Shown here piece after piece: positions 50,576-63,210 of a stretch of 64,000 nt of DNA. Origin of the DNA: Lancefieldella parvula DSM 20469 (lineage in GTDB: Bacteria; Actinomycetota; Coriobacteriia; Coriobacteriales; Atopobiaceae); assembly GCF_000024225.1 (NCBI RefSeq), contig NC_013203.1:806001-870000 (forward strand). Direction: 5' to 3'. How positions within the stretch are numbered: position 1 is the first letter of the stretch; every line of letters begins with the position of its first letter. The position numbers were made by a program, and so were the translations under genes. The notes beneath the pieces were generated by a model, which did no database searches, was not told where the DNA came from, and was given only the letters and a program-made list of their open reading frames with translations.

Positions 50576-52129
50576 TTATTTAGCTACATCTACGGCACGA
50601 GACTCACGAATAACAACAACGCGAACCTGTCCTGGATATTCCATCTCATCCTCAATTTGCTTAGCAATATCATGAGCAAGAACAGTTGCCTCGGAATCAC
50701 TAATCATTTGAGGCTCAACCATTACATGAAGCTCACGGCCAGCCTGCATTGCGTAAGTACGCTCAACGCCCTCATGAGCATTAGAGATTGCCTCAAGCTT
50801 CTCTAGACGCTTAATGTAGTTTTCAGCGGACTCACGACGAGCACCAGGACGAGCAGCAGAAATTGCATCTGCGGCCATGACAAGCATGTCAAGAACGGTG
50901 TTTGGCTCAATATCTGCGTGGTGAGCTTCAATTGCATGAACAATCTCTGGACGCTCACCATAACGACGAGCAAGATCTGCACCAATTACAGCGTGTGGAC
51001 CTTCGACTTCGTGATCGATTGCCTTACCAAGGTCATGGAGAAGACCGGCCCGCTTTGCTGGAGCAGGTTCAAGACCAAGCTCTTCAGCCATAATGCCACA
51101 AAGTACTGCAACCTGAACTGAGTGGGCAAGAACATTCTGACCATAAGAAGTGCGGTAACGAAGCTTACCAAGCGTCTTAACAATCTCTGGATGTAGATCA
51201 TGAATACCACAATCAAATGCGGCCTGCTCACCAGCCTCAAGAACACGCTCGTTAACGAGGGCTTCAGCTTTCTTATAGAGCTCCTCAATACGTGCAGGAT
51301 GAATACGACCATCTGCAATAAGATTCTCAAGAGCAACGCGAGCAGTCTCACGACGGACGGGGTCAAAACTGGAAAGAACAACAGTCTCTGGAGTGTCATC
51401 AATAACAAGAGAAACACCAGATACTTGCTCAAAAGTACGAATGTTGCGGCCTTCGCGTCCAATAATCCTACCCTTTAAATCATCGGATGGAATATGAACA
51501 GAAGTAACGGTAATCTCAGAAGCCTGATCTGCAGCAACACGCTGAATGGCAGTAGAAATAATCTCACGAGCAGTTTTATCTGCCTGTGCACGAACGCGCT
51601 GCTCAGACTCACGAAGAATCATTGCCTCATCACGAACGCTTTCTGAACGAACACGAGCTAGAAGCTCATCATGAGCTTCGTCTTTTGTAAGAGCTGCAAT
51701 GCGCTCAAGCTCTTGAGATTGCTGAGACACAAGAGAGTCTAAATCGTTCTTACGACGATCAAGCTGACCTTGAAGACTAGAAAGTTGATGCTCACGCTTT
51801 TCTAATGCGTCGGTACGGTGATCAAGAGATTCTTCACGCTGAAGAATACGATTCTCCATGCTGCGAAGCTCGCTCTTGCGCTTCTTCTCGTCTGCCTCTG
51901 CTGCCTGCTTAAGCTGAAGAACCTCTTCTTTAGCCTCAAGAACAGCTTCCTTTTTAACTGTTTCTGCCTGGCGAGTTGCTTCAGAAGCAATACGATCTGC
52001 ATTAGTCTGAGCATCTTTTAACTGCTGCTCTGCAGTTTTAATCTTTGAATTACTGATGTTAGAGAGCACGCCGTATGCAAGGCCTACTCCCACAAGAAGG
52101 CAAACAATGCCAACTCCTGCTAATTCCAT
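50576..52129 (-). CDS. rny: Ribonuclease Y
   Basis: Membrane-anchored endoribonuclease that starts mRNA decay in many Gram-positive bacteria. An N-terminal transmembrane helix (ELAGVGIVCLLVGVGLAYGV) is followed by a long coiled coil to about residue 190. The KH domain has GRIIGREGRNIRTFEQ near 218 and the HD domain HDLGKAIDHE near 350 with the metal-binding His-Asp pair; HADIEPN follows. Its 517 residues are full length. A strong promoter and an approximately 185-nt structured leader precede it. RNase J and PNPase also occur in the window. Confidence 0.96.
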   Translation of the reverse strand: MELAGVGIVCLLVGVGLAYGVLSNISNSKIKTAEQQLKDAQTNADRIASEATRQAETVKKEAVLEAKEEVLQLKQAAEADEKKRKSELRSMENRILQREESLDHRTDALEKREHQLSSLQGQLDRRKNDLDSLVSQQSQELERIAALTKDEAHDELLARVRSESVRDEAMILRESEQRVRAQADKTAREIISTAIQRVAADQASEITVTSVHIPSDDLKGRIIGREGRNIRTFEQVSGVSLVIDDTPETVVLSSFDPVRRETARVALENLIADGRIHPARIEELYKKAEALVNERVLEAGEQAAFDCGIHDLHPEIVKTLGKLRYRTSYGQNVLAHSVQVAVLCGIMAEELGLEPAPAKRAGLLHDLGKAIDHEVEGPHAVIGADLARRYGERPEIVHAIEAHHADIEPNTVLDMLVMAADAISAARPGARRESAENYIKRLEKLEAISNAHEGVERTYAMQAGRELHVMVEPQMISDSEATVLAHDIAKQIEDEMEYPGQVRVVVIRESRAVDVAK

Positions 52130-52313
52130 ACCTACTCCTCAAATGGCGATTACAAAAGTGTTCAGGAGACTTTAGACAAAACAGTATCTAAAGAACCCGC
52201 CATGAGCAGGATTCATTGGCTGGTCATGCCACATGCAGAGATAGATCATGTATATGAGATACCTACTGTATACGTGACGCTGGTTGCCCAGCGGAAATGA
52301 GCCTATTCATGGC
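52130..52313 (-). ncRNA. Putative structured 5' leader of rny
   Basis: From the predicted start near 52313 to the rny ATG the RNA can fold into several stems: CGCUGG-GCAA-CCAGCG (GNRA loop), GUAUA/UAUAC, CCUGC/GCGGG and CUUUAGA/UCUAAAG. CAUGCCA at the extreme 5' end can also pair with UGGCAUG to enclose the first two. No known riboswitch class is recognised. It may be a cis-regulator of rny, but that is inferred from folding by eye. Confidence 0.45.
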
Positions 52314-52319
52314 ATGTTT

Positions 52320-52348
52320 ATCGTATAGAGCATTGTGGCTTTTGTCAA
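52320..52348 (-). promoter_or_regulatory. Promoter of rny
   Basis: TTGACA (52348-52343) and TACGAT (52325-52320) on the minus strand are 17 bases apart. The start should lie near 52313, within the gap between recX and rny. Confidence 0.8.
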
Positions 52349-52412: not shown

Positions 52413-53087
52413 TTACTTAGATGTGGCGTTTTCATCTAAGATTTTTTTAGCAACTAATGAAGCTATAGAAAATGAATATCCCCTTGCAGCAAGAAACCTC
52501 ACAAGTTTCTCATAATCATTTTTTCCAGACAGGTGTTTTCTTTGGGCTAGAGAATACGCAACTTCAATTTCATCCACATCAGAAAAATAAGAATCAGGCC
52601 ACCCAGAAAGCTTCTCAACTTCAATTCCTTTTTTTGAAATCTCGGTTTTAATTTTAAGAGGACCCCATCCTTGCGAAATTTTAGATCGTATATAGACATC
52701 TGCAAAACGACTGTCATTAACTAAGCCAACTTCAACAGCTCTCTGTACTGCAGCGTCTCTTACATTCTTCTGATAACCATCGAGCATGAGTTTTTTCTGA
52801 AGCTCAGCTGTAGAGTAATCCCTTTTTACAATCAAAGTCTCAATGCGAGCTTTAATGCACTGCGTTGAAATCTCTTTTAACTCATACAAAAACTCATTAC
52901 GAGAAGAAGGCGTAAAAACACCATCTTTCTCTTTGCCCTGAAGAACGCGGGCTACTGTTGGAGGGACAAAGAATTCCTCCGTCCCTCCAACTTCAGTTTC
53001 TAAAATTATCTTTGCCTTAGGCTTTGCCTGGCCTAGAACTGCTTGTTTCTTTTGTGGAGGCTCAATTGTCCAAGAAATTTCTGACAT
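52413..53087 (-). CDS. recX: Regulatory protein RecX
   Basis: Modulator of RecA filament activity. The C-terminal half has the RecX three-helix repeats: RDYSTAELQKKLMLDGYQ near residue 95, VGLVNDSRFADVYIRSKIS and SLAQRKHL. The N-terminal approximately 75 residues form an unusual basic/beta-rich extension. At 224 residues it is long for the family. The TAATG overlap with recA means coupled translation and shared SOS control. Confidence 0.9.
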   Translation of the reverse strand: MSEISWTIEPPQKKQAVLGQAKPKAKIILETEVGGTEEFFVPPTVARVLQGKEKDGVFTPSSRNEFLYELKEISTQCIKARIETLIVKRDYSTAELQKKLMLDGYQKNVRDAAVQRAVEVGLVNDSRFADVYIRSKISQGWGPLKIKTEISKKGIEVEKLSGWPDSYFSDVDEIEVAYSLAQRKHLSGKNDYEKLVRFLAARGYSFSIASLVAKKILDENATSK

Positions 53088-54175
53088 TATTCAGCAGAAT
53101 CTTCCGTTGCAACTGGAGTACCAACTTCAGAATCCTCATCGAATACAAGGCCACAAGCAACTCGTACTTTATGATCAATCTCTTCCATGAGATCTGGATT
53201 GGCAGTAAGGAAAGATTTAGCTGCTTCTCTACCTTGGCCAAGACGCTCTCCCTCATAGGTAAACCAAGCACCAGACTTGTTAACAATCTCAAAGTCAACA
53301 GCCATATCAAGAATAGAGCCTTCTTTAGAGATGCCCTGGCCGTACATAATGTCAAACTCAGCAACCTTAAAAGGTGGAGCAACCTTATTCTTTACAACCT
53401 TAACGCGAACACGGTTACCAACGTTTTCTCCGTTGACCTTAATGCTGTCAACGCGGCGAATATCCATACGAACAGTGGAGAAGAATTTAAGAGCCCTACC
53501 ACCAGAAGTAGTCTCTGGACTTCCAAACATAACACCAATCTTCTCTCTAAGTTGGTTAATGAAAATACAAAGAGTATTAGACTTTGAAAGAGAACCAGCT
53601 AATTTACGAAGAGCTTGACTCATAAGACGTGCCTGAAGACCAACGCTAGAATCGCCTATTTCTCCCTCAATCTCTGCACGAGGAACAAGGGCAGCAACGG
53701 AGTCTACGACTACAACGTCAATGGCACCTGAACGAACAAGCATGTCACAAATTTCCAAAGCCTGCTCACCAGTATCTGGCTGAGAAATAAGAACGTCATC
53801 AATATCAACGCCAATACGAGCTGCATAGCCTGGGTCTAGTGCGTGCTCCGCGTCAATAAAAGCTACGACGCCACCTAATGCCTGGGCTTCTGCAAGAATT
53901 TCTAGTGAAAGAGTTGTCTTACCAGAAGACTCTGGGCCATAAATCTCTACGATACGACCACGAGGAACACCACCAATACCCAGTGCTGCATCAAGAGCAA
54001 GTGAGCCAGTTGGAATAGCCTGAATATCAAAGGCAGGACCACCCTCACCTAAACGCATAATGGCGCCTGCACCAAATTTTTTCTCGATTTCCGCTGTGGT
54101 TGAAGAGATAACCTCATCCCTCTCATCACCAGTGGTACGAGCCTTAATCTCTTTTGAAACTGACTTTTTAGCCAT
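53087..54175 (-). CDS. recA: Recombinase RecA
   Basis: DNA strand exchange and LexA coprotease. Walker A is [10 protein letters not shown] near residue 65-74, Walker B-like region [19 protein letters not shown]2 loop and the DNA-binding [12 protein letters not shown]. The C terminus is acidic ([11 protein letters not shown]). 362 residues is normal. I chose ATG 54175, with AAGGAG five bases upstream, rather than the GTG at 54181. A LexA box between -35 and -10 (54214-54225) makes it a SOS gene; recX is coupled downstream. Confidence 0.97.
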
Positions 54176-54204
54176 GGGCACTCCTTGCTCTTTTTGTTAC
54201 TAAA

Positions 54205-61545: not shown

Positions 61546-63210
61546 TTATACCTCCATAATGACCGGAATAACCATTGGTCGAGTACGAGTTTTGCTCCAA
61601 AGGAAGTTAGAAAGAGCATTGCGAACACTCTTCCTCATTGCTTCAATATTTGCACCTTCGGACTTAGAGGCTTTCTCGATTGAATTTCTCACAAGATTCT
61701 GTGCGTCGTTCATGAGCTCATCATCATCAGCAAATGAAACACCACGACCAGAAATCTCAACAACGCCTGGTTTAAGATTACGACCAACAAGGGTTACCAC
61801 AGCTGTAACAATACCGTCCTGGGAAAGACGCTGACGATCACGAAGAACAACAGGGTTAGCATCAGTGACAGACAGGCCATCAACGTACACTACACCAGAC
61901 TCAACCGTCTTACCACGCGTAACTTTTCCGTTTCTCATCTCAAGCGTGTCGCCGTTATCCAGAATGAAAATACGGTTAGCAGGAACGCCCATCTGCTGAG
62001 CAAGCTCTGCATGGGCACGCAGGTGAACAGCTTCGCCGTGGACTGGCATGAAGTTCTTTGGACGAGCCATACCAAGCATCAGCTTGAGTTCTTCCTGACT
62101 TCCATGACCAGAAACATGAACAAGTGCCTTTGACTTGTCGTAAATCTCGCAACCAATCTTAGAGAGCGCGTTAATAATGGACTGAACGCTCTTCTCGTTA
62201 CCTGGTACAGGAGTTGCAGAGATAATTACGGTGTCTTGAGGACGGATGGAAAGCGATTTATGCTCTCCATTTGCCATACGCGCCAAAGCACTTAGAGGCT
62301 CTCCCTGAGAACCGGTACACAAAACAACAATGCGATCATCTGCAAGTTTATCAACATCGTAAGCATCAATGATGTCTTTATCAGCAATATTAAGATAGCC
62401 AAGCTCACGCGCAATCTTTGTGTTGGTAATCATAGAGCGACCAGTAACAACAACCTTACGCTTTACCGCCACAGAGGCATCACACACCTGCTGCAGACGG
62501 TGAATGTGGCTTGAGAACGACGCAACAAAGACACGACCAGTTGCATTCTTAATGATGTGACGAAGTGCCGCACCAACAGAAGCCTCAGATGGAGTCATAC
62601 CTGGGCGGTTGGCGTTAGTCGAGTCAGAAAGCAGCAGGTCAAGCCCCTCAGAGGCAAACTTAGTAATAGCAGCGTAATTTGGACGCACGCCATCAATAGG
62701 AGTCTGATCAAGCTTAAAGTCACCAGAGTGAATAAGTGTTCCCGCAGGGGTCTTCATGTGAATTCCAAAAGCTGCAGGAATAGAGTGGGTCATCGAGAAG
62801 AACGTGATGTCAAAGGCACCAAGCTGTACCTTAGAGCCATCAGTAACCTCACGAAGCTTAGTGCCCACAATCTTGTGCTCAGCAAGCTTACCTTCAATAA
62901 AGCCAAGCGAGAGCTTACTGGAATAAATTGGTACCTTACGAGTAAGATCCATAAGCAGGTACGGAAGAGCACCAATGTGATCCTCATGACCGTGGGTAAT
63001 CAAAATACCGCGAAGCTTATCTTCGTTTTCTAGTACATAGGTGTAGTCTGGCAAAACAAGGTCAATACCAGGCTGTTCGTCATCTGGGAACATCAAACCA
63101 GCATCAACAAGCACCATATCATTACCGTACTCAAAAACGGTCATGTTCTTGCCAATGCCATCAAGTCCGCCCATAGGAATGACTTTAAGAGCTGGGTCTT
63201 TCTTAGGCAT
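61546..63210 (-). CDS. rnj: Ribonuclease J
   Basis: Metallo-beta-lactamase/beta-CASP nuclease with endo- and 5'-exoribonuclease activity. ILITHGHEDHIGALPYLL carries the HxHxDH metal site near residue 75; HSGDFKLDQTP and DSTNANRPG follow; the beta-CASP motif is VHVSGHGSQEELKLML and the C-terminal dimer domain is complete. 554 residues is typical. A ribosome site AAAGGAA precedes the ATG. The pnp gene lies upstream in the same direction. Confidence 0.96.
   Translation of the reverse strand: MPKKDPALKVIPMGGLDGIGKNMTVFEYGNDMVLVDAGLMFPDDEQPGIDLVLPDYTYVLENEDKLRGILITHGHEDHIGALPYLLMDLTRKVPIYSSKLSLGFIEGKLAEHKIVGTKLREVTDGSKVQLGAFDITFFSMTHSIPAAFGIHMKTPAGTLIHSGDFKLDQTPIDGVRPNYAAITKFASEGLDLLLSDSTNANRPGMTPSEASVGAALRHIIKNATGRVFVASFSSHIHRLQQVCDASVAVKRKVVVTGRSMITNTKIARELGYLNIADKDIIDAYDVDKLADDRIVVLCTGSQGEPLSALARMANGEHKSLSIRPQDTVIISATPVPGNEKSVQSIINALSKIGCEIYDKSKALVHVSGHGSQEELKLMLGMARPKNFMPVHGEAVHLRAHAELAQQMGVPANRIFILDNGDTLEMRNGKVTRGKTVESGVVYVDGLSVTDANPVVLRDRQRLSQDGIVTAVVTLVGRNLKPGVVEISGRGVSFADDDELMNDAQNLVRNSIEKASKSEGANIEAMRKSVRNALSNFLWSKTRTRPMVIPVIMEV

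Follow-up and report, generated by a model that had tools for sequence, protein, structure and literature searches.

The window analysed here, a stretch of 64,000 nt from the complete genome (1,543,805 bp) of Lancefieldella parvula DSM 20469, carries on its minus strand the coding sequence of RNase Y (rny; 517 aa, 50576-52129), preceded on the same strand by recX (52413-53087). RNase Y starts much of the mRNA decay in bacteria without RNase E, and a search of this genome gave no match to RNase E/G. RNase J (TIGR00649, 566 bits) is encoded at 61555-63189 (minus strand), about 9 kb from rny. To our knowledge, how the dose of RNase Y is set has been worked out in detail for little beyond Bacillus subtilis. 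Transcription of rny is predicted to begin with a leader of 185 nt (52313-52130, minus strand), which places a structured 5′ untranslated region (5′ UTR) directly before the gene of a decay endonuclease.

The leader follows a promoter made up of a −35 element (TTGACA, 52343-52348), a 17-nt spacer and a −10 element (TACGAT, 52320-52325), all on the minus strand. This promoter had been proposed in a sequence-only reading of the window, and comparison with relatives bears it out. In our genome set, the families labelled f1, f3 and f4 are taken to be the Atopobiaceae, Coriobacteriaceae and Eggerthellaceae, respectively. We found RNase Y in 133 of 140 Atopobiaceae genomes and compared the DNA in front of it at 127 loci: nearly all of these regions contain TTGACA-N16-18-TANNNT, exact TTGACA is the best −35 box in 105 of the 127, and the −10 element is conserved as well. 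Promoter and leader are conserved together across the family. A covariance model of the rny leader (R1) finds matches in 113 of the 140 genomes, once per genome, and 112 of its 115 matches in the family lie directly upstream of rny; of the other three, two are weak and lie elsewhere, and one is in a genome for which no rny match was listed. Outside the family, R1 yields only two weak matches (E = 4e-4 and 0.008), neither of them convincing. A few Atopobiaceae genera, g9 (loci L118-L121), g11, g14, g15 and g16, have no R1 match (L099, L104, L110, L117, L122 and L118-L121); in g15, the rny upstream sequence is different and lacks the usual promoter.

At its 5′ end, the leader carries the sequence GCCAUGA (arm A, 52313-52307), which pairs with UCAUGGC (52205-52199) in a downstream segment that we designate arm B (CUCAUGGC, 52199-52206, minus strand). 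The resulting helix, P1, is already present in the minimum-energy fold of the window's leader, which folds better than expected by chance (z = −2.6; 5 of 200 shuffles are as good). The sequence-only reading had closed the domain with CAUGCCA and UGGCAUG instead, suspecting that the predicted start might cut this stem short. Fold and alignment both replace that helix with P1, and nothing is cut short, as the first base of P1 is the predicted +1. The 65 non-redundant Atopobiaceae leaders show P1 at 93.9% pairing, and six of its ten pairs vary on both sides; when partners are slid out of register, pairing of the whole structure falls to 28-48%. These figures count anchored pairs, because gappy middle regions reduced RNAalifold on the raw MAFFT alignment to a single hairpin. 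In a tree-based null (a self-written substitution-shuffling test modelled on the idea behind R-scape), one P1 pair is significant in Atopobiaceae and none in Eggerthellaceae, the remaining Atopobiaceae pairs being too conserved or changing on one side only. Mapping onto an RNase Y protein tree of 55 loci gives 12.8 compensatory branch events for P1 in register, against 0.7-5.7 in the shifted registers tried. A spacer of 6 or 7 nt separates the −10 box from arm A in every one of the 65 aligned Atopobiaceae leaders and in 31 of 33 Coriobacteriaceae leaders; in 33 of 37 Eggerthellaceae leaders it measures 6-9 nt. Given an ordinary start site, this constant spacing would make arm A the first sequence transcribed, and we infer that it forms the 5′ end of the transcript.

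In the other families of the class, a leader stands at the same place before rny with a diverged sequence. The sequence-only reading had suggested aligning the rny upstream region of related Coriobacteriia and checking it for covariation, and doing so uncovers conserved pairing with compensatory changes. Coriobacteriaceae leaders begin with GUCAUUUG, which pairs with CAAAUGUC; this helix contains one U-U mismatch and varies little. In Eggerthellaceae, GCNUGAG pairs with CUCANGC, and the pairs just outside this core are compensatory (U-G in 19, C-G in 9 and A-U in 6 leaders at one; A-U in 17 versus U-A in 8 at the other). P1 is 92.1% paired in this family (38 rows, including one mis-cut sequence, L245). 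L245 opens alignment A2 and had been excised at guessed coordinates; this figure and the Eggerthellaceae covariance model (R2) include it, and the spacing and U-run counts, the tree-based null, the RNase Y tree and the promoter scan leave it out. With R2, each genome again has a single strong match, and rny follows the match in all 59 testable cases. Neither R1 nor R2 finds a strong second copy of the leader before another gene in Atopobiaceae or Eggerthellaceae. In further families and orders, GGCA... pairs with ...UGCC at 22 loci (78% paired), a value that is biased upward because the arms were hand-picked with pairing in view; whole-arm shuffles average 64% (0 of 1000 reach 78%), and slid registers, the fairer control, give 29-34%. 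RNAduplex comparisons with shuffled regions from the other families give weak z-scores (mean −1.3), these shuffles being less informative than the register and whole-arm controls. P1 is thus present in family after family of the class Coriobacteriia, compensatory changes included, and covariation supports it; the rny leader contains a conserved base-paired domain.

Atopobiaceae leaders share one order of blocks: arm A, a hairpin (P2), a U-rich stretch, a variable region, arm B (CUCGGAUGGC-like) and a second, platform hairpin (PH), followed by UCUCC(U/A)GAAC, then CAUCUGAGGAG and then the start codon. In the window, P2 is CGCUGG-GCAA-CCAGCG (52278-52293, minus strand). The position is about 80% paired in relatives, with both-side changes at all pairs but one. 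This hairpin of the sequence-only reading is real, but the GNRA loop singled out there is not conserved: GCAA occurs in 2 of about 50 P2 loops and is restricted to this species and its nearest relative. The tetraloop was therefore rejected as a functional element. In Atopobiaceae, U makes up 57% of the single strand after P2, compared with 28% of the leader as a whole; in Eggerthellaceae, A and U together account for about three quarters of this strand. The window's own stretch is less U-rich than that of its relatives. PH (CUUUAGA...UCUAAAG, 52170-52193, minus strand) is 92.7% paired in the 65 leaders; all six pairs covary and four are significant under the tree-based null. This hairpin, too, had been noticed from the sequence and holds up well, but it lies about 30 nt before the Shine-Dalgarno (SD) sequence rather than just before it.

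The conserved segment 3′ of PH (UCUCCUGAAC, 52160-52169, minus strand) is an anti-SD-like tail and occupies the site taken by the terminator U-run in Eggerthellaceae. An upstream open reading frame was considered and rejected: AUGGCGG is found in 73 of 119 leaders and the conserved UGAAC is its first in-frame stop in only 16, and the occurrence of CCAGAAC in many leaders disfavours it further. In part of genus g35 (L058, L060, L067, L069 and L070), the GGUUCC at the base of PH is replaced by GGUGCC, GGAGCC or similar forms, and the same leaders keep the 3′ UCC(U/A)GAAC. Conservation of GAAC therefore has another cause than its pairing with GUUC.

Arm B has a second potential partner, which differs between families. 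In Atopobiaceae, it is complementary to CAUCUGAGG, the SD plus its upstream flank (79% of cells paired, 65 leaders); the corresponding segment in the window, arm C (CGCCAUUUGAGGAG, 52135-52148, minus strand), includes the SD GAGGAG (52140-52135). None of the nine B:C pairs covaries under the tree-based null in Atopobiaceae; the SD is itself constrained, hence covariation cannot support this helix. Going by complementarity, arm B may pair with the rny SD region as an OFF alternative to P1 in this family. In 35 of 37 Eggerthellaceae leaders, arm B leads into a GC-rich hairpin with a U-run directly behind it (5 or more U among the next 8 nt), the signature of an intrinsic terminator. Only 1 of 65 Atopobiaceae leaders has such a U-run; UCUCC(U/A)GAAC takes its position. 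In Coriobacteriaceae, arm B also precedes a hairpin, the U-run is weak, and no pairing of arm B with the SD is evident in the leaders of this family. A scan of the Eggerthellaceae leaders found no promoter-like site above chance between terminator and rny, which means that transcription from the leader promoter must pass the terminator. Arm B is thus common to P1 and to either the predicted SD pairing (Atopobiaceae) or the terminator (Eggerthellaceae), and these shared bases would make the putative ON and OFF helices mutually exclusive. The layout resembles an on/off switch, with translation as its apparent target in Atopobiaceae and transcription in Eggerthellaceae; the output platform was swapped during evolution. 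Folding predictions agree with a modest effect of arm A removal across Atopobiaceae. Without the first 12 nt, predicted SD accessibility is 0.40 rather than 0.94 for the window's leader and averages 0.240 rather than 0.315 across the family (Wilcoxon p = 2.6e-5); a control deletion causes a small drop in the mean, to 0.300 (p = 0.035).

We consider it most likely that the leader holds RNase Y at a set level, as a cis-acting attenuator in which P1 competes with an OFF structure and RNase Y is the preferred trigger (a probability of roughly 0.6). Arm A pairs with arm B, closing a domain that holds P2; being made first, arm A would render P1 and the ON state the default. Free RNase Y may then cut or occupy the U-rich single strand just 3′ of P2, separating arm A from arm B, upon which arm B would close the SD or terminator structure and rny expression would fall, resulting in negative autoregulation. 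More generally, anything that removes or masks arm A would free arm B for the OFF structure, and the mechanism class, a switch on rny, is more certain than its trigger. RNase Y is suggested as the most economical trigger because the element is found only before rny, because of the U-rich stretch, and by analogy with B. subtilis, in which RNase Y keeps the level of its mRNA down, in part through cuts in the 5′ UTR of that mRNA (PMC10303841). Its cleavage sites follow only a weak consensus (PMC11780869) and its specificity is diffuse (PMC11780869, PMC11321564); we therefore predict no cut site in the leader. The sequence-only reading had already proposed a cis-element controlling RNase Y, though it overlooked both the switch-like arrangement and the terminator form of sister families. 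The structured cis leader is now strongly supported by conserved pairing, covariation and its single copy before rny, and control of the RNase Y level is what the B. subtilis analogy suggests.

The arrangement of P1 against a terminator or an SD helix is typical of riboswitches, and conserved unpaired stretches occur within families (e.g. UAUAGA..ACAA..CAUA in Eggerthellaceae and UUCAUA..GGGUG in Coriobacteriaceae). A small molecule bound in the P1-closed domain could thus stabilise P1 and keep rny on, with platforms swapped between families, a swap that known riboswitches show too. We find this unlikely: only rny carries the element, once per genome, which fits a gene-specific loop rather than a metabolite regulon, and the conserved interior varies between families, with no class-wide aptamer core evident. 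In a wider reading, a class-wide and so far undescribed riboswitch-like RNA of the Coriobacteriia would respond to RNA-decay load, sensed as a decay product, a nucleotide or free RNase Y, and would set how much RNase Y is made, through termination or SD sequestration depending on the family; we give this somewhat less than even odds.

The same architecture would also suit a protein ligand, either a different protein or RNase Y itself, bound through its KH domain without cutting, that shifts the balance between P1 and the OFF structure, and the U-rich stretch after P2 would be a plausible site; with no candidate protein and no common protein-binding motif seen across families, we rate this lower still than a small-molecule riboswitch. 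Arm A at the predicted +1 in a genome encoding RNase J would be expected if the 5′-terminal helix merely protected the mRNA from attack at its 5′ end (by RNase J or a pyrophosphohydrolase) without any switching. Such protection needs neither the fusion of arm B to a terminator in 35 of 37 Eggerthellaceae leaders nor the SD match in Atopobiaceae, and we regard it as improbable. Least probable is a free-standing small RNA gene upstream of rny. In Eggerthellaceae, a promoter plus a terminator would provide one, and a terminated leader could act in trans, but no promoter-like site above chance lies between terminator and rny in that family, and in Atopobiaceae the terminator is missing and arm B faces the rny SD.

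The autoregulatory attenuator that we favour resembles known systems in part. The rny gene of B. subtilis has a 5′ UTR of 160-164 nt with structure near the ribosome-binding site; there, control is decay-based, with many cuts mainly in the 5′-terminal 50 nt and trimming by RNase J1, and the available part of that report describes no conserved 5′-end helix, terminator or SD switch (PMC10303841). The autoregulatory 5′ UTR element of rne (RNase E) is likewise a structured leader of the gene of a decay-initiating endonuclease, in which the enzyme's binding to a stem-loop speeds up cutting at other places in the transcript (PMC10303841); enzyme and RNA are different, and the window's leader has no match to it in Rfam at E up to 10. 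Dual-platform riboswitches and attenuators share the anti-OFF P1 set against a terminator or SD-sequestering helix, as well as the lineage-dependent platform swap, but the rny leader has no known ligand and is restricted to one gene. Rfam 15 holds no credible match for the window's leader at E up to 10, nor for any of 20 relatives drawn from many families when E values up to 1 are admitted, and the open-licence literature, the part that could be searched, yielded no published report of the motif. We regard the leader as a new cis-regulatory RNA family of the attenuator type, probably autoregulatory, with an unusual class-wide range and platform swap. It adds an RNA family to annotate in gut and oral Coriobacteriia, by which we mean relatives of Eggerthella, Collinsella, Olsenella and Atopobium. 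As a single-gene, class-wide leader with two interchangeable platforms, it would also be a clean natural test of the idea that a nuclease, by removing one strand, can flip a switch made of RNA. Elsewhere in the window, a near-consensus promoter (TTGACA-N17-TATTAT, 54233-54205, minus strand) stands directly before the recA-like open reading frame at 53087-54181.
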